Shown piece after piece: positions 44,709 through 57,402 of a DNA stretch of 64,000 bases. This DNA comes from an uncultured Pelagibacteraceae bacterium (GTDB taxonomy: Bacteria; Pseudomonadota; Alphaproteobacteria; Pelagibacterales; Pelagibacteraceae). The position numbers were made by a program, and so were the translations under genes. Position 1 is the stretch's first letter. Each line of letters begins with the position of its first letter. The notes under the pieces are model-generated. The model ran no database searches and was not told the origin of the DNA. It saw nothing but the letters and a program-made list of their open reading frames with translations. Where the stretch lies: NCBI GenBank assembly GCA_902557155.1, contig CACDYR010000003.1, positions 1-64,000 on the forward strand. Reading direction: 5' to 3'.

Positions 44709-46220
44709 TTAAACTCTTTTCTTACCTTGAACAACCCTATCAAGAATCAATGCAACGAATAAAATTGCAACACCTGCTAAAATACCTTGTCCAACATTAG
44801 CATATTGAAGAGCTTCTAGAACATCTTGTCCTAATCCTTTTGCACCTATTAGAGATGCAACTACCACCATTGCTAAACTTAACATTACAGTTTGGTTTAC
44901 ACCTGCTAAGATAGATGGCGTTGCTAATGGCAAATCTACTTTTTTTAATAAATACCATTTAGATGCTCCATAAGCGATTGCAGCTTCTCTAATTGTTTCA
45001 GGTACGCCTCTTAATCCAAGAACTGTTAATCTAACTACAGGGGTTCCTCCAAAAATCATTGTAATTATAACCGCAGCGACCTTCCCCGTTCCAAAGAATG
45101 CAATTACTGGGATCATAAAGACAAAGGCTGGCATTGTTTGCATAAAATCCATTATTGGTCTTATCATTGAATAAAATCTTTGACGTCTTGCGCAAAAAAT
45201 TCCAAGCGGAATTCCAATAACAATACTTAATACAGCAGCTGTTCCCAAAAGAGCTAAGGTAGTCATGGCTTTTACCCAAAAACCTAAAAATCCCATGTAA
45301 CATAAAAATCCTGCCGAATAAATTGCAGCTCTTGGGCCTGCAGCCAGTCCTGTTAAAGTTACTATGGTGGTAATGATTACTATCCATGGAGTTTTAACAA
45401 ATAGCAATTCTAAAAAATCCAATACTGATCTAATACCAATAGTGATTGCTGTAAATAAAGCATCTCCTTTTAAAACAGCATAGTCAAAAATAGTTTCTAC
45501 CCATTTTATTGAAGTAAGTCTTATGTCTGGATGAGTTGGAAAGTCATCCATTATAGTAATAACACCTGGAAAACTATAATGCACAACTGAGAAAAACATA
45601 ATCACTGCAGCAAAAATTGTGCTGGAGATAAAGTTCTTAGTTTGCATTCCTGGTCTTATTGTTTTGTCAGATAACCATTCTGAATATCTTTTTTCTAATA
45701 CAGAATTAGCAAGAATCCCTTGAACTATTTTAATCGAAATTAATAAAACAATACCAAAAATTGTGATCCAAATTGCAGATGCTTCAATTCTTGCAACTTC
45801 ATCAATGTATCCCTGCATTGCATCTTCTAAGGATTTAATATTACGTTTATAAACATCAACTTTATCTGGATTATTAGTAATAGCTGCTTCTAACTGTTTG
45901 TTTCTAAATGCAATTGTAGATTCAACTTGTTTTATTTTTTCAACTGCATCTTTAGTAATATTCCCAAATAAACCTCTTATAATTTGAACAACTGAAAATG
46001 TTTCAATTATTAAAAAAGCTAGAGCCCAATTCCATATATTTCTCATTCCAAACCAAATTGGACCTAGAATTCCTGCATATAAATTAAATGAAAAAGAAAA
46101 TGAAGGTTTGCTTCCAATTTTTTGAAACTCCTTAATGTAATATTCTGGATTTGATTTAACAAAGTCAGCTATTAACTCAGATCTAGTAGGGTTATTAATT
46201 TGTTTATTCTCCATCACCAC
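44709..46220 (-). CDS. proW: Glycine betaine/proline ABC transporter permease with DUF2628-like N-terminus
   Basis: 503 residues, longer than E. coli ProW (354). The C-terminal 280 residues are a typical OpuAB/ProW permease: 'GIPLGIFCARRQRFYSMIRPIMDFMQTMPAFV' and coupling loop 'REAAIAYGASKWY'. The first 100 residues have a cytoplasmic segment then 'SFSFNLYAGILGPIWFGMRN', resembling DUF2628 proteins with two TM helices, followed by a charged coiled stretch (about 105-150) before the next helices. It overlaps proV by 17 bp; a start at 46214 (MENKQ) is equally possible. Confidence 0.88.
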   Translation of the reverse strand: MVMENKQINNPTRSELIADFVKSNPEYYIKEFQKIGSKPSFSFSFNLYAGILGPIWFGMRNIWNWALAFLIIETFSVVQIIRGLFGNITKDAVEKIKQVESTIAFRNKQLEAAITNNPDKVDVYKRNIKSLEDAMQGYIDEVARIEASAIWITIFGIVLLISIKIVQGILANSVLEKRYSEWLSDKTIRPGMQTKNFISSTIFAAVIMFFSVVHYSFPGVITIMDDFPTHPDIRLTSIKWVETIFDYAVLKGDALFTAITIGIRSVLDFLELLFVKTPWIVIITTIVTLTGLAAGPRAAIYSAGFLCYMGFLGFWVKAMTTLALLGTAAVLSIVIGIPLGIFCARRQRFYSMIRPIMDFMQTMPAFVFMIPVIAFFGTGKVAAVIITMIFGGTPVVRLTVLGLRGVPETIREAAIAYGASKWYLLKKVDLPLATPSILAGVNQTVMLSLAMVVVASLIGAKGLGQDVLEALQYANVGQGILAGVAILFVALILDRVVQGKKRV

Positions 46221-47265
46221 CCTCTATGACTGCTTTTAAAAGATCTGATTGTGTAATAACTCCAATGTTTTTTTGCTCATAATTTTTAACAACTAATGGC
46301 TTATCTTTCGATTTTGAAACTTCAATTAATTTACTTAGCAATTCATGCTCATCTACACTTTGTAAATTTTCTTCCAACTTACCATTTAAATTTTCATAAC
46401 TTTCAACTGTTTGCATGATTGTTTTTGCCTGAACAACTTTAAGTCTAGAAATTCCTTTAACAAAATCTGCAACATATTCATCAGCTGGATTAACTACAAT
46501 TTGTTCTGGAGTTCCAATTTGAATAACTTTTCCATCTCTCATAATAGCAATTCTATGTCCTACTCTTACAGCCTCATCTAAATCATGAGTTATAAAAACT
46601 GTTGTCTTTTTCATCTGTTTTGAAAGTTTGATAAATTCTGATTGAAGCTGTCTTCTAATTAGTGGGTCTAATGCACTAAAAGGTTCATCCATTAAAAGAA
46701 ATTCTGGATCTGCAGCTAATGCTCTTGCAAGTCCTACTCTTTGTTGCATTCCTCCAGATAATTCATGAGCAAATTTATTACCCCAACCTTGTAATTCAAC
46801 TATTTCTAAAATTTTATTTGCTGCATCTAAACGATCATTTTTACTTACTCCTCTTATTTCAAGAGGCATTGCAATATTATCTACTACTGATCTATGAGGC
46901 ATAAGCGCAAAGTTTTGAAAAACCATGCCTATCTTTTTATTTCTTAGTTCTTGTAAATTATCACGATCAAACTGCATTACATCTTGACCGTTTATCAAAA
47001 TCTTTCCCGATGTAGGTTCTAAAAGTCTGTTTATATGTCTAACTAATGTAGATTTTCCACTACCAGATAAACCCATCACACAAAATATTTCTCCTTGATT
47101 AACATCAAATGAAACATCTGATACACCAATAACTGAATTATACTCTTCTAAAGCTTCTGTTTTTGAAATTCCTTTATTTTGAATTGCATCCAATGCTTCG
47201 GGAGAAGTATTACCAAATACTTTCCAAACATTTTCAATTTTTATAGCTGAACTCGATGAATCCAT
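46204..47265 (-). CDS. proV: Glycine betaine/proline ABC transporter ATP-binding protein
   Basis: 353 residues. Walker A 'GLSGSGKST', signature 'LSGGMQQR', Walker B 'FLLMDEP', switch 'ITHDLDEA'. Characteristic ProV/OpuAA N-terminal extension before the ABC domain ('LDAIQNKGISKTE') and a C-terminal segment from about 285 with one CBS-like unit ('NIGVITQSDLLKAVIE'), which in relatives senses ionic strength. It is between the binding protein (hairpin in between) and permease genes. Confidence 0.9.
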   Translation of the reverse strand: MDSSSSAIKIENVWKVFGNTSPEALDAIQNKGISKTEALEEYNSVIGVSDVSFDVNQGEIFCVMGLSGSGKSTLVRHINRLLEPTSGKILINGQDVMQFDRDNLQELRNKKIGMVFQNFALMPHRSVVDNIAMPLEIRGVSKNDRLDAANKILEIVELQGWGNKFAHELSGGMQQRVGLARALAADPEFLLMDEPFSALDPLIRRQLQSEFIKLSKQMKKTTVFITHDLDEAVRVGHRIAIMRDGKVIQIGTPEQIVVNPADEYVADFVKGISRLKVVQAKTIMQTVESYENLNGKLEENLQSVDEHELLSKLIEVSKSKDKPLVVKNYEQKNIGVITQSDLLKAVIEGGDGE

Positions 47266-47288
47266 TTTTATCTTTTATTATAGGAAAA

Positions 47289-47319
47289 TATACCCGGCAA
47301 TCTTAAATTGCCGAGTATA
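47289..47319 (-). terminator. Hairpin between betaine-binding-protein and ATPase genes
   Basis: CGGCAAT/ATTGCCG with a CTTAA loop, extended by TATAC/GTATA across one C-A mismatch (13-bp stem with a single mismatch). On the minus strand it starts 14 nt after the binding-protein stop and is followed by TTTTCC. It looks like an attenuator or mRNA stabiliser, as for the other three transporters. Confidence 0.75.
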
Positions 47320-47333
47320 AATTTTGATTTAGA

Positions 47334-48296
47334 TTATAGTCCTAACCAACCGTCTACAGTTGATTTATTTGCTTCCATCCAAGCTCTTGCAACATCAGCT
47401 GGATCTTTTTTCTCAACTGAAACTGAATAAGCCATTGCAGAAACATCATCAGCTGTTAATTGAAAATTCTTAAAGAATTCTACAATTGCTGGTGATTGAC
47501 TCTCTAAAGATGTAGCCCAACCGATTTGGATTTGCTTAAGTGCATCTTTTGATGCAACATAAGATTTCTTGTACCAGTCAGCATCTGCTTTAGGTTGAAT
47601 CATTTTATATTTTGCAGGATCATATTTTGGTTCTGTTAACATCACTACGTCAGCCATTCCCCAAATTGCATGAGGTTTGTAACAATAGAATGCATAACCT
47701 TCCCCTTTTTTGATTGAGTCTAGTACTCTAGCGTTTTTAACTGCTTCAGCAGCTCTAACAGCTTCGATACCAGCATCATATAAACCATAGTCTCTTAATT
47801 TAACTTGGTTCACATTTGCAGAAGCCCAACCATCAGCGCCAATCCAGAACTCACCTTTTCCATTGCCATCACTATCCATAGCTTTAACAACTTCAGGTCT
47901 TGCTAAGTCTTCAATTGCTGTAATGTTCATTTTTTTAGCAAACTGTTGTGAAACACAATAACCTTGGTTTCCTTCGTAAGGTTTGCTACTTAATTTTAAA
48001 GTTCCTTTTGGAACTAAATCATTTGTATAAGCTTCTTGGTTTGGTAACCAAATGTCAGGATGTACATCAATTTCACCTTTTCCTCTATCAATCGCTGCAT
48101 AAATTGCAGTATTGTTTCCTGGAACAAGCTCAGCTTCTCCACCCATTTTGTCTGTAACAACTGCAGCTAATAAGTTTGCAATAGCTGTAGCACCTGTCCA
48201 TCCTGGATCTCCAATTTTAACTTTTTCTGCTTGTGCAGAAAAGATTGATAAAATTGAGATTAATCCAGCTACAAGTGTAGTTTTAATTATTCGCAT
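47334..48296 (-). CDS. proX: Glycine betaine/DMSP-type periplasmic binding protein
   Basis: 320 residues. Signal peptide 'MRIIKTTLVAGLISILSIFSAQA'. 'KIGDPGWTGATAIANLLAAVV', 'DRGKGEIDVHPDIWLPNQEAY' and 'KGEGYAFYCYKPHAIWGMADV' fit the ProX/OpuAC family, whose aromatic box (Trp/Tyr/Phe) binds trimethylammonium or dimethylsulfonium groups. Ligands in marine relatives include glycine betaine and DMSP. AAGGAGA precedes the ATG. Confidence 0.88.
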   Translation of the reverse strand: MRIIKTTLVAGLISILSIFSAQAEKVKIGDPGWTGATAIANLLAAVVTDKMGGEAELVPGNNTAIYAAIDRGKGEIDVHPDIWLPNQEAYTNDLVPKGTLKLSSKPYEGNQGYCVSQQFAKKMNITAIEDLARPEVVKAMDSDGNGKGEFWIGADGWASANVNQVKLRDYGLYDAGIEAVRAAEAVKNARVLDSIKKGEGYAFYCYKPHAIWGMADVVMLTEPKYDPAKYKMIQPKADADWYKKSYVASKDALKQIQIGWATSLESQSPAIVEFFKNFQLTADDVSAMAYSVSVEKKDPADVARAWMEANKSTVDGWLGL

Positions 48297-51042: not shown

Positions 51043-51531
51043 ATGAAAAAAATAATACTAGCATTAATTTTTACATTAATGTCAATGTCTTCAGTATCAT
51101 TTGCAGATGGTCATAGTGGAAAAATTAGTCTTGCTGGTTTTTTTGTTGGCGATGCTAAAGCTATTGTAGATGAAAAAGGAAACATCATGACTTTTACATA
51201 TGAAGGTCTAAGTGGATTTAATGCAATAGAAGGTACTTCGTTTGGTGATAATTCATCACATCATTGTATAGGTGCAGGAACAATTCCAGGTAAAGGTTTT
51301 GAAATGGGTCACTGTAAAATAATGTTTATAAATGGTGACACAGCAATAATTTATTATGAAATAAAGTTAGGTTACTCAATGGAAGGTACTTTTAAATGTA
51401 TCAGTGGTACAGGTAGATATGAAGGTATCGAATGCAGTGGAACTACGGGTTACACACAAATTAAGCCTGCTCAGGAAGGTAAAATTCATGCAACGAATTA
51501 TTACAGGGGCACTTATACATTAAAAAAATAG
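51043..51531 (+). CDS. Secreted protein of unknown function, Cys-rich beta-barrel candidate
   Basis: 162 residues. Signal peptide ending around 'SSVSFADGHS'. The mature chain is Gly- and beta-rich with cysteines in 'HHCIGAG', 'GHCKIMF' and 'KCISGTGRYEGIECSG', which could make two disulfides in the periplasm. The 'GTGRYEGIxCSGT' end recalls allene-oxide-cyclase-like or lipocalin-type barrels, but only loosely. First gene of a compact plus-strand series to 54513; the next gene starts 9 bp away. Confidence 0.6.
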   Translation: MKKIILALIFTLMSMSSVSFADGHSGKISLAGFFVGDAKAIVDEKGNIMTFTYEGLSGFNAIEGTSFGDNSSHHCIGAGTIPGKGFEMGHCKIMFINGDTAIIYYEIKLGYSMEGTFKCISGTGRYEGIECSGTTGYTQIKPAQEGKIHATNYYRGTYTLKK

Positions 51532-51540
51532 TAAAATAAT

Positions 51541-51921
51541 ATGAAAAAAACACTTTGTTATTTAGTAATATTGTTTACTCCAATGGTTTGTTTTGCGGAT
51601 GGACATTTAACTGAAGACCAAAAAAAGAAAACAATTGGATGTGCAGGAATTTACTATTCAAATAGTATGATTTCACAGGCCGAACTAGAATTAGATAAAA
51701 TTGTGCATTCTTTCGCTGCTAAGAAATTTTTAAGTTCTTACTTGGTTAAAGAAGGTGTGAACGAAGATAACCTTAATAAGGAACTAATAAAGATTGTTGA
51801 TGAGCGTTACGGTAAACCATACGAGGAAAATATCACAAAAGAATGTGATAGTTTTATCTATAAATTAATCCCTAATTCAAAAGTTGAAATTGATAAATTA
51901 GTTAGATCAGGGATATACTAA
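51541..51921 (+). CDS. Secreted helical protein of unknown function
   Basis: 126 residues. The signal peptide ends at 'TPMVCFADGHL', sharing the 'FADGH' junction with the preceding protein. The mature part is helical and has two cysteines ('IGCAGIYY' and 'KECDSFIY') likely disulfide-linked. No known domain is recognised. It lies 9 bp after the first gene of the series and precedes a strong AAGGAG site for the next. Confidence 0.6.
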   Translation: MKKTLCYLVILFTPMVCFADGHLTEDQKKKTIGCAGIYYSNSMISQAELELDKIVHSFAAKKFLSSYLVKEGVNEDNLNKELIKIVDERYGKPYEENITKECDSFIYKLIPNSKVEIDKLVRSGIY

Positions 51922-51938
51922 AAAAAAGGAGAAAAAAA

Positions 51939-52220
51939 ATGAAAGATATATTGGTAGTAGGAAAACTAAAAGAAGGAGCCTTTGAAAAATTTATGGGCTT
52001 CATGCAGTCAGATGAAGGTATGACAGAAAGAAAAAAAGTTGCAGATGTTACTAAAACAATTGCAAGTGTTTCACCTGATAAATCAACTGTAATGTTTAAA
52101 ATTGTAGTTCATGACATGGCAGCACTTCATTCATTTATGGATGGATCAAATCCAGTTTCAAAACCTGTATTTGATGAAGTAATGAATGGTTATGAAATTT
52201 ACGAGTTAGCTAAAGTATAG
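51939..52220 (+). CDS. Small cytosolic ferredoxin-fold (ABM-like) protein
   Basis: 93 residues. 'MKDILVVGKLKEGAFEKFMGFMQSDEG' followed by 'KSTVMFKIVVHDMAALHSFM' has the beta-alpha-beta-beta pattern of antibiotic-biosynthesis-monooxygenase-like or dimeric alpha/beta barrel proteins. No catalytic residue is diagnostic. AAAAAAGGAG precedes the ATG, a strong ribosome site. Its partner genes (cupin, SnoaL-like) suggest a shared small-molecule pathway. Confidence 0.55.
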   Translation: MKDILVVGKLKEGAFEKFMGFMQSDEGMTERKKVADVTKTIASVSPDKSTVMFKIVVHDMAALHSFMDGSNPVSKPVFDEVMNGYEIYELAKV

Positions 52221-52296
52221 TAGAAGACTAAGGCTACACATGCTGACTAATCTCTGCTAAACTTAGTAATTAAATTGTAAGTAACGAGGAGAAAAA

Positions 52297-52647
52297 ATGG
52301 CTGGAATAGAAGTTAAAAGTTTTGATAAAGCAGATGAAGTAAATGATAATTTTAATAATGCTAAAATTGAAGCTGTCAAAGTTGGAAACCAAAGATTGAT
52401 GAAACTTACTTTGCAACCTGGTTGGCAATGGTCAAAAGATATAAAGCCAACAGTTGGTGGTGATAGCTGCCAAGCAACGCATATAGGAATTATAATTTCT
52501 GGAGCTGTTTGTGCAAAACATAATGATGGAACTGAACTAACTTATAAAGCTGGTGATGCATATTCAATACAACCAGGTCATGATGGATGGGTTGTAGGAG
52601 ATAAGCCAGCAGTAGTATATGAGTTTCATGGAATGTGGGGTGAATAA
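52297..52647 (+). CDS. Cupin-domain protein
   Basis: 116 residues. The cupin halves are visible: 'QATHIGIIISGAVCAKHNDG' (His, Gly turns) and 'YKAGDAYSIQPGHDGWVVGDKPAVVYEFHG' (Pro-Gly-His). The metal-binding His/Glu set is partly kept, so it could be a metal enzyme or a sensor. AACGAGGAG precedes the ATG. It sits 76 bp after the ABM-like gene, and 15 bp before the SnoaL-like gene. Substrate is not known. Confidence 0.75.
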   Translation: MAGIEVKSFDKADEVNDNFNNAKIEAVKVGNQRLMKLTLQPGWQWSKDIKPTVGGDSCQATHIGIIISGAVCAKHNDGTELTYKAGDAYSIQPGHDGWVVGDKPAVVYEFHGMWGE

Positions 52648-52662
52648 AAAAAAAGGAAAACT

Positions 52663-52983
52663 ATGTCTATATTAGAAAAATACAGTGCTGCACTGAAAAA
52701 TAAAGATGAAGCGGTAATGAATGAGCTTTTGCATGATGATTTTAAATTCACAATGCACAAGTCAGGAAATGTTTTAACTAAAAGTGATGTTATCAAATGG
52801 GCGATGAGTGGTGATATTAATCAAGATAAGGTTAGAATTGTTTATGAAAATGACGAAGTAGGTATTCACCATGCATTTGTAACATTTAATGATGGTAATG
52901 TTGAGGCGGTAATGGCAGTTTATAAATATGATAATGGAAAAATTGTCAGTTTAGAAACTGGTGCTACACCAATACCAAAATAA
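52663..52983 (+). CDS. SnoaL/NTF2-like small protein
   Basis: 106 residues. 'LEKYSAALKNKDEAVMNELLHDDFKFTMHKSG' and 'HHAFVTFNDGNVEAVMAVYKYDNGKIVSLET' trace the cone-shaped NTF2 fold used by ketosteroid-isomerase and polyketide cyclase relatives. His/Asp in 'HDDFKF' could be catalytic but is not conclusive. It is directly followed by the GTG of the HCCA-isomerase-like gene. Confidence 0.65.
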   Translation: MSILEKYSAALKNKDEAVMNELLHDDFKFTMHKSGNVLTKSDVIKWAMSGDINQDKVRIVYENDEVGIHHAFVTFNDGNVEAVMAVYKYDNGKIVSLETGATPIPK

Positions 52984-53612: not shown

Positions 53613-53945
53613 ATGAGTCTTGCAACTTCATATTTATTTTTAGGTATTGCTGTTTTTCTAGGAGTTACTTCAAATAGTTTCGCAAAAAGTGCCGAAGGAT
53701 TTACTCTCCTTGTTCCAAGTATAATTACTGCAATAACCATTGTTTTGTGCATGTATGCTCTTTCATTGGTAATGAAAAATATTCCAATGGGAATTACTTA
53801 TGCTTCCTTTGCAGGTTTAACAATAATTGCAACTGTTATTGTTGGAGTAATTAGATTTAATCAAGTGCCTAATTTATACTCATTAATTGGTTTGGCTTTT
53901 ATTATTGTTGGTGTTTTAATGGTCAACCTGTTAGGTAATAATTAG
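53613..53945 (+). CDS. SMR-family membrane protein lacking the canonical Glu (copy 1)
   Basis: 110 residues, four TM helices. 'SYLFLGIAVFLGVTSNSFAKSAEGF' aligns with EmrE helix 1 around 'LAEVIGTTLMKFSEGF', but position 14 of EmrE (Glu) corresponds to Gly17 here. 'IPMGITYASFAGLT' replaces the EmrE 'IPTGIAYAIWSGVG', so Trp63 becomes Phe. Without the Glu the usual proton/drug coupling should not operate. The pair with 54178 may form a heterodimer transporting something else. Confidence 0.75.
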   Translation: MSLATSYLFLGIAVFLGVTSNSFAKSAEGFTLLVPSIITAITIVLCMYALSLVMKNIPMGITYASFAGLTIIATVIVGVIRFNQVPNLYSLIGLAFIIVGVLMVNLLGNN

Positions 53946-53947
53946 TT

Positions 53948-54175
53948 ATGATTAATAAAAAATATGCACAACCCTTATTTATGATTTTAATGTCGTTGGG
54001 TATGAGTGTTATAATGAGTGGTGTTGTTGTGGCTGTAAATACAGGTGTTTCAGATGGTTTCTTTTTTAGATGGGGATATTCTATGATGTTTGCATATCCT
54101 ATTGCTTTAATTGCTGCATTTACAATGGCTCCAATAATTAGACCATTAGTTAATAAAATTGCATCAAAAGAATAA
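53948..54175 (+). CDS. DUF2798 two-TM membrane protein
   Basis: 75 residues with two TM segments (about 8-30 and 45-68). 'MSLGMSVIMSGVVVAVNTG' and 'WGYSMMFAYPIALIAAFTMAPIIRPLV' are typical of DUF2798, a small conserved family of unknown role. It lies between the two SMR-like genes with 2-bp spacers, so all three are almost certainly co-translated and may form one complex. Confidence 0.75.
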   Translation: MINKKYAQPLFMILMSLGMSVIMSGVVVAVNTGVSDGFFFRWGYSMMFAYPIALIAAFTMAPIIRPLVNKIASKE

Positions 54176-54177
54176 CC

Positions 54178-54513
54178 ATGAAACCTTTATTGGGATATTT
54201 ATTTTTAGCTATTGGTATTTCTTTTGGTATTGCTTCTAATAGTTTAGCTAAAATTTCTGAGGGATTTACCAAGCTTACACCATCAGTTTTATGCATATTG
54301 TTTATGTGTATTACGATGTTTTCAATTGCAAAAGCAATGCACGCTCTTCCTGTTGGTTTTGCTTACGCAACCTATAGCGGCTTAACAGTAACTGGAGTTG
54401 TTCTTTTTGCGGTATTAAAATTTAATCAAGTACCTAATCTTTATGGAATAATTGGAATTATTTTAATTATTATTGGAGTAATAATGGTTAATTATCTTGG
54501 ACGACTAAACTGA
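54178..54513 (+). CDS. SMR-family membrane protein lacking the canonical Glu (copy 2)
   Basis: 111 residues, four TM helices, clearly a tandem relative of the gene at 53613: both end in 'FNQVPNLYxxIGxxxIIxGVxMVN'. Helix 1 'GYLFLAIGISFGIASNSLAK' again has Gly where EmrE has Glu14, and 'LPVGFAYATYSGLT' has Tyr where EmrE has Trp63. Such paired copies recall the heteromeric SMR proteins EbrAB and YkkCD, which keep the Glu. The last 22 bp overlap the convergent DUF952 gene. Confidence 0.75.
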   Translation: MKPLLGYLFLAIGISFGIASNSLAKISEGFTKLTPSVLCILFMCITMFSIAKAMHALPVGFAYATYSGLTVTGVVLFAVLKFNQVPNLYGIIGIILIIIGVIMVNYLGRLN

Positions 54514-54864: not shown

Positions 54865-55428
54865 TTACCAAGAAGAGTTTGGACCTTTTAAGAATTCTAA
54901 TTCTTCTTCAGTAGACTCTCTTCCTAAAATTTCATTTCTATGAGGATATCTATGGAATTGTCTGATTGCTTTTGTATGATCTTGCCAAAATTTTTTTATC
55001 TCATTGTATCCTTCGTGCTCTCTTAAATATTTATTTAATAAGTAATATGCCATGTCATGATCACTGATTTCCTCACTATGAATTAAAGGTAACAACATAA
55101 AAAATCTTTGATTTACATTCATAGCTTCTAAATAACCTGAATAAACCGCGTCGTTTACAATCAATCTAGTTTTTTGATCTTGAGCAAAAGCTTTTTTATC
55201 ATTTCTAAACATATTTCTTGAAAACTGATCAAATAAAATAACTAATGCAAGACAACTCATAGGGTTATCTTGCCAATCATCATATTCATTTTGACAAGCA
55301 AGTTCATAATCTTCTAAAAAATTATCTTTAATTTTTTGATCAAACTTTTCATTTTTTTTAAAACGCATTTCAGAAGGAGTCTCTTTAAACCAGAAATCTA
55401 AAATTACTTGTGCTCTTTCGGGGATCAT
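54865..55428 (-). CDS. DUF924-family protein
   Basis: 187 residues. 'ILDFWFKETPSEMRFKKNEKFDQKIKDNF', 'ALVILFDQFSRNMFR' and 'FFMLLPLIHSEE' are hallmark stretches of DUF924, an all-helical TPR-like family with no established activity. It overlaps the upstream phosphatase gene by 4 bp. Cytosolic. Confidence 0.82.
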   Translation of the reverse strand: MIPERAQVILDFWFKETPSEMRFKKNEKFDQKIKDNFLEDYELACQNEYDDWQDNPMSCLALVILFDQFSRNMFRNDKKAFAQDQKTRLIVNDAVYSGYLEAMNVNQRFFMLLPLIHSEEISDHDMAYYLLNKYLREHEGYNEIKKFWQDHTKAIRQFHRYPHRNEILGRESTEEELEFLKGPNSSW

Positions 55429-56231
55429 TTAGCTACTGGCTTTAATAATTTTAAAACTTTTTGATGATTTTGTTTGTTATTAGAAACAAGTATATTTCCA
55501 CCTAATACAGGGTTTTTATTATCCCAGGTAGTTATTATTGCTCCTGCTGCTCTCACAATTGGTATCAATGGGTGAATATCCCAAATCTTATTTGCACACT
55601 GGGCAACTATTTCAATTCTACCCTCTGCCAATTGACAATATGTCAATGCATCAAAACAAGGAAATTGCATTCTTTTTATAAACTTTTTAATTTTTAATTG
55701 TTGTTTCAAAGATAAGTGATGATGAAATGCAGCTGCAAGTTTTGCGTTTGTAAAATTTAGCTTGGTATTAATTTTTAATTTTCTTTTTTTATTATTCTCA
55801 AAAACATACGCTGAGTTTTTGTTCAAGTTTAAATAATATTTCTTCATTTTTGGAAAATTAGCCAGTCCTAAAACAGGCTCTCCATTGTAATTTAATGAAA
55901 TGAGATTGCTCCAACTAGGATTACCTACAACATATGATCTAGTTCCATCAATTGGATCAATCACCCAAGAAAATTCACTTTTTGTATTTTTGTGACCATA
56001 TTCCTCACCTATAATTTGGTGATTTGGGAATTTTTTTGAAATTTTAGATCTTATGAATTTTTCAAATGCTTTGTCAGATGTTGTTACAGGATCGTAACCT
56101 TTGCCTTTCATCTTATTTGTTATCTTAAATGGCTTATCTAACTTAGTGTAATAAAACTTAGTTAAATCTTTAGCAAGTTGATTTAAAAAACTTGCATATA
56201 TTGGATATTTTTTTGTATCAAATTTTTTCAC
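55425..56231 (-). CDS. Inositol monophosphatase-family phosphatase (histidinol-phosphatase-like)
   Basis: 268 residues. The lithium-sensitive phosphatase motifs are present: 'GEEYG' with the metal-binding Glu, 'WVIDPIDGTRSYVVGNPSW' and 'IWDIHPLIPIVRAAGA'. The 'GTRSYVVGNP' variant is common in HisN-type histidinol-phosphate phosphatases of alphaproteobacteria, but inositol or 3'-phosphoadenosine phosphatase roles cannot be excluded. Divergent from the BBOX-like gene; a 67-bp spacer holds both starts. Confidence 0.82.
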   Translation of the reverse strand: MKKFDTKKYPIYASFLNQLAKDLTKFYYTKLDKPFKITNKMKGKGYDPVTTSDKAFEKFIRSKISKKFPNHQIIGEEYGHKNTKSEFSWVIDPIDGTRSYVVGNPSWSNLISLNYNGEPVLGLANFPKMKKYYLNLNKNSAYVFENNKKRKLKINTKLNFTNAKLAAAFHHHLSLKQQLKIKKFIKRMQFPCFDALTYCQLAEGRIEIVAQCANKIWDIHPLIPIVRAAGAIITTWDNKNPVLGGNILVSNNKQNHQKVLKLLKPVAK

Positions 56232-56298: not shown

Positions 56299-57402
56299 AT
56301 GAAAATTGAGCTAGTTGAAAATAAGGTTTATTTTAATAACGGGTCTGAAAAAAAAGAAATTCACCCATTCTGGTTAAGAGAAAGAGTTAATGGTGAGGAG
56401 TATTTAGATAAAGGAACTCAGCAAAGACTTTTTGATCCTACCTTTTTAAGTAATGATATTTCAATAAATAAAGCAAAACTTAATGAAAAATACTTAGAGG
56501 TTGATTTTAATGATGGTGTTAATTCAAAATTAGAAATTGATAAAATTACATCTGAATTTTCAAAAGAAGATATTGTAATAAAATCTATTGAAAAAAACAA
56601 ATGGGATTCCTCTTTAAAAAATATAAAAAATTTTGAATACCAAGAAAATTTTTACGAAAGTAAAGAGATGCATGATCTACTCGTTTCATTTTACAAATAT
56701 GGTTTTGTAATAATTAAAAATATTCCAACATCTAAGAATTATATTGTGGAATTTGCAAATTCTATAGGCAGTGTTCGAAGAACAAATTTTGGTGAATATT
56801 TTAATGTAAAATCTAAACCTGATCCAAACGATCTTGCTTATACTTCATTAGCATTAGCACCTCATACTGACAATCCTTATAGAAATCCTGTACCATGTAT
56901 TCAAATTTTACATTGTATAGAAAGTAAAGTTTCAGGTGGATTATCAACATTGGTGGATGGTTATACAGTTACTGAAGATTTAAAAAATCAATACCCAGAA
57001 TTTTATAAAATTTTAACTGAAGTAAAAGTTAGATTTAGATTCATAGACAAAGAAGTAATTTTAGAGACTATCTCTCCTTTGATTGAACTAAATGAAGATA
57101 AGAGTTTCAAGCAGGTAAGATTTAGTCCTAGATTAGACTATGTTCCAATTTTAGAAAAAGAAAAATTAGATCTTTACTACCAAGCAAGAAAAAAAATATC
57201 TGAAATGTATAATTCAGATAAATATAGAATTGAGTTTAAACTCGAGCCAAAAGACTTAATGATGATGGATAATCATAGACTTCTCCATGGTAGAACAGCT
57301 TATGAGACAAAAGAAGGTGAAAGATTTTTACAAGGTTGTTATATTGATTACGATAGTACTGAGGGTAAACTTAGACACTTAAAAAGAAAGTTTAATCTTT
57401 AA
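56299..57402 (+). CDS. Gamma-butyrobetaine hydroxylase/TauD-like 2-oxoglutarate dioxygenase
   Basis: 367 residues. N-terminal DUF971-like domain (about 1-95, 'IHPFWLRERVNGEEYL'), then the dioxygenase domain with Fe ligands in 'APHTDNPYRNPVP' (HxD) and 'DNHRLLHGRTAY' (distal His) and a downstream Arg for 2-oxoglutarate. The family hydroxylates gamma-butyrobetaine or trimethyllysine to make carnitine. The N-terminal domain has no Cys, so the zinc site usual in butyrobetaine hydroxylases is missing. In this betaine-consuming organism, another trimethylamine substrate is plausible. Confidence 0.78.
   Translation: MKIELVENKVYFNNGSEKKEIHPFWLRERVNGEEYLDKGTQQRLFDPTFLSNDISINKAKLNEKYLEVDFNDGVNSKLEIDKITSEFSKEDIVIKSIEKNKWDSSLKNIKNFEYQENFYESKEMHDLLVSFYKYGFVIIKNIPTSKNYIVEFANSIGSVRRTNFGEYFNVKSKPDPNDLAYTSLALAPHTDNPYRNPVPCIQILHCIESKVSGGLSTLVDGYTVTEDLKNQYPEFYKILTEVKVRFRFIDKEVILETISPLIELNEDKSFKQVRFSPRLDYVPILEKEKLDLYYQARKKISEMYNSDKYRIEFKLEPKDLMMMDNHRLLHGRTAYETKEGERFLQGCYIDYDSTEGKLRHLKRKFNL

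Follow-up and report, generated by a model that had tools for sequence, protein, structure and literature searches.

SMR proteins serve as the model for how a minimal protein couples transport to protons, and their central Glu is regarded as indispensable in every cation-exporting subtype. One account (PMC9574504) describes this Glu as binding both protons and cations and allows that lipid SMRs without it may be proton-uncoupled; work cited in another (PMC13300293) reports export of glycine betaine by EmrE and an inactive E14C variant. SMRs lacking the Glu are already described. The lipid SMRs ArnE and ArnF, presumed to be uncoupled and found in the context of lipid A modification, keep the Tyr switch while many have Asn at the central position, and the Bacillus protein YvaD is a poorly conserved SMR paralogue without E14, its partner YvaE being the better conserved. 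Adjacent SMR genes are familiar from MdtI/MdtJ, EbrA/EbrB and YkkC/YkkD, whose partners, almost without exception, retain the Glu and are opposite in charge bias.

Here we analyze a locus of SAR11, the ocean's most abundant bacteria and heterotrophs, in which two adjacent SMR paralogues, A and B, both carry Gly in place of the central Glu and enclose a gene of the DUF2798 family. The original prediction for this locus, that no system of its composition had been described, was too strong in view of ArnE/ArnF, often with Asn, and of YvaD. Yet ArnE/ArnF are only very weakly similar to A and B in sequence and many have Asn rather than Gly, and A and B, unlike YvaD and YvaE, are both Glu-less and both highly conserved. 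As far as literature searches show, what is new is a conserved clade of two Gly paralogues that arose once beside Glu-bearing relatives and spread through SAR11, and its loose partnership with DUF2798. Found in the same bacteria, the clade and its close Glu-bearing relatives offer a natural before-and-after series for studying the loss or change of coupling and substrate choice; a role would also be assigned to a membrane protein of most SAR11 genomes, possibly one in osmolyte handling.

Organization of the locus

The window, the whole stretch of 64,000 nucleotides analyzed (contig CACDYR010000003.1, uncultured Pelagibacteraceae bacterium), contains the following features, listed with strand and profile scores.

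52663..52983, + strand: SnoaL-like gene, left border of the A/B/DUF2798 site (context, unproven part); PF14534 DUF4440, 29.7 bits
52984..53574, + strand: DsbA-like gene directly upstream of A (context); PF01323, 95.3 bits
53613..53945, + strand: Gly-SMR type A, 110 aa, F66, Gly17 for Glu14; PF00893, 61.9 bits
53661..53663, + strand: Gly17 codon of A (EmrE Glu14 position)
53948..54175, + strand: DUF2798 protein, 75 aa, predicted two-helix membrane hairpin, optional companion; PF11391, 64.4 bits
54178..54513, + strand: Gly-SMR type B, 111 aa, Y66, Gly17 for Glu14; PF00893, 63.6 bits
54226..54228, + strand: Gly17 codon of B (EmrE Glu14 position)
55425..56231, - strand: IMPase/histidinol-phosphatase-like gene, right border (context); TIGR02067, 198.5 bits, below its cut-off

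Profile searches matched A and B to PF00893 across their whole length and above its curated cut-off (23.7 bits), and identified the middle gene as a clear member of DUF2798 (PF11391, cut-off 23.5 bits). The three ORFs share the + strand and are separated by gaps of 2 bp, which bears out the predicted spacing on each side of DUF2798; the length of 110 residues given for both SMRs holds for A, B having one residue more. The DsbA-like gene ends 38 bp before A, and B and a convergent DUF952 gene share 22 bp at their 3' ends (54492-54513). The SnoaL-like gene exceeds the cut-off of PF14534 and falls just below that of PF12680 (SnoaL_2, 26.1 bits).

This arrangement recurs at a conserved home site with the order SnoaL-DsbA-[A, D, B]-DUF952-DUF924-IMPase-GBBH-like dioxygenase, where D denotes DUF2798. 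A first set of 81 loci comprised the window's own and 80 further SAR11 loci recovered with B; an A gene adjoins B in all 80 of the latter, and the SnoaL-like (77/80), DsbA-like (64/80) and IMPase-like (74/80) genes are common among them. The dioxygenase, at 56299-57402 in the window, resembles 2-trimethylaminoethylphosphonate and gamma-butyrobetaine dioxygenases, scoring below the cut-offs of both families; 65 of the 80 loci have it close to the Gly-SMR site. Before the SnoaL-like gene (51043-52647) stand a cupin-like gene and small genes encoding proteins of 162, 126 and 93 aa, a run whose members vary in presence between relatives; Pfam gave no match for the 162 aa and 93 aa products. The opposite strand carries, some 5 kb upstream, genes for a ProX-like binding protein, an ABC ATPase and a permease (44709-48296), a set resembling a glycine betaine/choline ABC importer.

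Comparison with EmrE and predicted fold

Both proteins, which share 47% identity, align with EmrE without gaps (E = 4e-12 for A, 2e-14 for B), and in each Gly17 faces EmrE Glu14, as originally predicted. The alignment also agrees with the prediction that EmrE Trp63 is replaced by Phe in A (F66) and Tyr in B (Y66). The shared FNQVPNLY..IG ending is real, and the loop described as 'SEGF'-like reads AEGF in A. In addition, N21 occupies the position of EmrE Thr18 in both, and the second Gly of the TM3 GXG fulcrum is Thr in both window proteins. In length, in their four helices and in retaining the Tyr60 switch, Lys22 and Gly65 (EmrE numbering), A and B resemble Qac SMRs (EmrE, QacC/G/H/J), from which they differ by Glu14 to Gly, Trp63 to Phe/Tyr, Thr18 to Asn and GXG to GX(T/C); the known route of proton coupling is closed to a Gly-SMR.

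B, the one SMR of the two that was modeled, gave a confident single-chain AlphaFold prediction of four helices (pLDDT 92.5), and its best PDB matches in Foldseek were EmrE and Gdx-Clo, with a TM-score of 0.79 to both. Membership of A and B in the ArnE/ArnF families was rejected on their scores of 12.7-16.6 bits against family cut-offs of 92-99 bits. A third SMR of the same genome, on another contig, is ordinary and keeps both Glu and Trp.

Conservation and selection

The Gly replacement is no matter of chance. In the first set, window included, all 80 readable A sequences and all 81 B sequences have G17, and 80 A homologues have F66 without exception. Across all sets we collected 205 distinct Glu-less sequences, and in every one Gly takes the place of the central TM1 Glu of the proton-coupled subtypes (Qac, Gdx, polyamine). 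Lys25, Tyr63 (the Tyr switch) and Phe/Tyr66 are likewise present in 205/205 and Asn21 in 204/205; the first fulcrum Gly and the TM4 glycines are essentially invariant. The binding-site Trp and GXG fulcrum of the proton-coupled subtypes are absent, with F/Y66 in place of the former and T, C or V as the second Gly of the latter. The search for another buried acidic residue suggested in the original prediction, run on the same 205 sequences, found no compensating acid in helix 1 and no acidic position conserved within any helix; the sole frequent acidic position is loop residue 28, acidic in 169 and lacking an acid in 36.

Median pairwise dN/dS is 0.046 for A, 0.049 for B and 0.10 for DUF2798. 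The invariant replacement residues together with dN/dS near 0.05 show that the Gly-SMRs are under strong purifying selection and not decaying. That these might be decaying or non-functional copies, as the missing active-site residue and two interrupted A genes could suggest, is hardly credible given such constraint over 205 sequences and maintenance in most SAR11 genomes, and for the Gly clade as a whole we reject it on the dN/dS of 0.05, the invariant residues and this wide maintenance. The interrupted A copies, each with an in-frame stop near the start, are those of locus L081 (near 158) and genome G498 (contig C16), where sequencing error, an alternative start or a recent pseudogene would each account for the stop.

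Since the Glu loss is conserved, under purifying selection and uncompensated by an acid in helix 1, ordinary proton-coupled cation efflux by A and B would be unlikely. The prediction of a function other than proton-driven drug efflux finds support in the same observations.

A single clade among SAR11 SMRs

In two trees made without the trait columns (alignment of 105 columns), the Glu-less proteins formed one clade, with support of 100/94 in the first and 99/91 in the second, where its halves A (93/90) and B (99/97) were also recovered. The nearest relatives are three SAR11 SMRs that retain Glu, Thr, Trp and the second fulcrum Gly, and these join the Glu-less clade with support of 99/96 in the second tree. 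They lie in carnitine/choline or amine catabolic clusters at the following positions.

L233:3270-3608: Glu-retaining SMR
L234:3220-3552: Glu-retaining SMR
L235:3496-3927 (L235/L189 in the trees): Glu-retaining SMR

Because all Glu-less sequences form one clade with Glu-bearing SAR11 SMRs nearest to it, the Glu was lost once, before the duplication that gave A and B; the finer branching is uncertain, the alignment being short. The original argument that loss in both copies speaks against random decay accordingly needs dividing: conservation and dN/dS sustain its conclusion, whereas the two losses reduce to a single inherited one.

The neighbors of the SMRs in L233 and L234 include choline dehydrogenase, TauD-type dioxygenase, BKACE, carnitine-dehydrogenase-like and GBBH-like genes, and those in L235 aldehyde dehydrogenase, glutamine-synthetase-like and agmatinase-like genes. 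These Glu-retaining proteins probably export quaternary amines or amine intermediates. An SMR gene has also been reported from an Arctic SAR11 island with a similar set of genes (PMC12421898).

Distribution

Within the order, 205 of 297 genomes matched a profile of A and B, as did 46 of 150 in a second, neighboring alphaproteobacterial order. Of the loci read, those of the second order and of family f174 usually have A-type alone, those of genus g279 B-type alone. Among 385 class-level and 399 phylum-level genomes we found no further Glu-less SMR of comparable score outside SAR11 and the second order, and every lower-scoring match whose locus was read keeps the Glu. B was not found in viral contigs.

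DUF2798 as a frequent but dispensable companion

The original prediction envisaged a three-component membrane complex of A, DUF2798 and B, with DUF2798 as a fixed subunit. Some of the evidence leans that way. In 73 genomes in which distances were mapped, the nearest DUF2798 gene lies within 600 bp of a Gly-SMR gene in 38, at 600-1500 bp in 5, at 1.5-6 kb in 23, beyond 6 kb in 3 and on another contig in 4. Across the 297 genomes of the order, 142 have both genes, 63 the SMR only, 6 DUF2798 only and 86 neither, an association checked by Fisher test with kinship ignored in a related and partly incomplete sample, so that it is not a count of independent events. The genes also occur together in several orders (A-D-B, D-A-B, A-B-D, D-B and A-D).

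The same surveys separate them, however. DUF2798 stands between A and B in 55 of 81 A-B pairs and is absent there in 26; A-B and D without an SMR also occur at or near the home site, and A alone or B alone elsewhere, so that all seven combinations of the three genes exist. In genomes G297 (at 465 kb), G537 (at 104 kb) and G664, DUF2798 is unlinked to the Gly-SMR, and the Glu-retaining sisters are without DUF2798 within 3 kb. Outside SAR11, where two DUF2798 records bore no annotation, none of three annotated marine plasmid neighborhoods of DUF2798 has an SMR gene, and one has a monooxygenase-like gene instead. An obligate trio is therefore improbable, and we reject it on the seven combinations; the three genes do not always co-occur, as the 297 genomes and 81 loci reveal, and A-B, DUF2798 with B, DUF2798 with A, and each gene alone are all seen. 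Two observations had been named in advance as telling against the prediction: an acid elsewhere in helix 1 was not seen, and homologues with unlinked DUF2798 and retained Glu were seen in part, namely as Gly homologues whose DUF2798 is unlinked and as Glu-retaining sisters lacking it within 3 kb.

These mixed arrangements indicate that A, B and DUF2798 favor each other's company while none requires the others, DUF2798 being a frequent but dispensable companion. AlphaFold predicts it as a hairpin (pLDDT 89.6; helices 4-32 and 38-72), a fold search with this model returned no significant PDB match, and a literature search on DUF2798 found no related work. We tentatively suggest that it is perhaps a stabilizer or regulator. 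In a Pseudoalteromonas locus (L252:2983-3482) the DUF2798 gene overlaps an antibiotic-biosynthesis-monooxygenase-like gene by 4 bp and adjoins a LysR regulator, with SMR genes absent nearby.

A pair or two single SMRs

As in paired SMRs, two adjacent genes are present; the opposite Arg/Lys bias of such pairs is absent. The bias is 0 or +1 in A and +1 in B in 113 of 115 pair loci, and is never opposite. It is thus near zero in both, equal whether A and B are paired or alone, and resembles that of ordinary single SMRs. Moreover, each member is also found alone, and A-only and B-only genomes exist. Given this charge bias, A and B each probably work alone, as putative dual-topology homodimers in which each forms its own antiparallel dimer; A:B heterodimers are a further candidate.

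Proposed function

We put at about even the chance that the Gly-SMRs are proton-uncoupled transporters or valves, derived from a proton-coupled SMR by the single loss of Glu. The sequences show that this loss was accompanied by the changes of Thr18 to Asn, Trp63 to Phe/Tyr and the second GXG Gly to Thr/Cys. Most likely a small antiparallel dimer would still form and alternating access persist; such a dimer would exchange no proton and would serve facilitated diffusion, or act as a release valve, down the gradient of its solute. The cargo would then probably be neutral or zwitterionic rather than a cation, and Asn21 with two aromatic residues could hold a zwitterion, which brings a carboxylate of its own.

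Two rival functions bear on this reading. The first is a flippase of the ArnE/ArnF kind, in which an uncoupled dimer in the inner membrane would move the head group of a lipid or lipid-linked sugar via a TM2 portal. Among the described subtypes, only lipid SMRs often lack the central Glu; they keep the Tyr switch and may be uncoupled. B, furthermore, lies upstream of glycerol-3-phosphate ABC genes in two loci. The sequence is nevertheless far nearer to Qac SMRs (81 and 65 bits) than to ArnE/ArnF (13-17 bits), the central residue is Gly and not Asn, no glycolipid biosynthesis genes were recognized directly around the locus within the window, and the nearest Glu relatives stand in amine catabolism, so that we regard a flippase as rather unlikely.

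In the second, transport has been lost altogether and the SMR fold serves as a small scaffold, channel or regulator. A role outside transport would fit the joint loss of coupling and pocket residues: three of the best-known functional positions, Glu14, Trp63 and the second GXG Gly, changed together, and among the 205 sequences the membrane part retains no conserved acid. Against this, the Tyr switch, Lys22, the first fulcrum Gly and the TM4 glycines are all but invariant, a sign that selection still acts on the moving parts, and we consider such a role doubtful.

For an uncoupled transporter, our best guess at the cargo is a betaine-type osmolyte or its breakdown product, to which we attach about half the credence given to the transporter itself. 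It draws on the Glu-bearing relatives in carnitine/choline clusters, on the carboxylate that a zwitterion carries, on Asn21 and the aromatic residues, and on the reported export of glycine betaine by EmrE. This guess rests on the relatives and not on the Gly genes, since the surroundings of the latter vary away from the home site, comprising a liv-type ABC operon (L245), a ugpB operon (L237, L238) and unrelated genes.

More tentatively still, and at clearly less than even chance, the Gly-SMRs might constitute a new, fifth functional SMR subtype, nearly confined to SAR11 and the neighboring order: putative uncoupled uniporters or osmolyte valves, evolved once from a quaternary-amine exporter, with a pocket of Gly17, Asn21 and Phe/Tyr66 and with DUF2798 as an accessory hairpin.

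At one site away from home (L245:3841-4176), an A-type Gly-SMR gene is inserted between the two permease genes in an ABC operon of the branched-chain amino acid/urea type.
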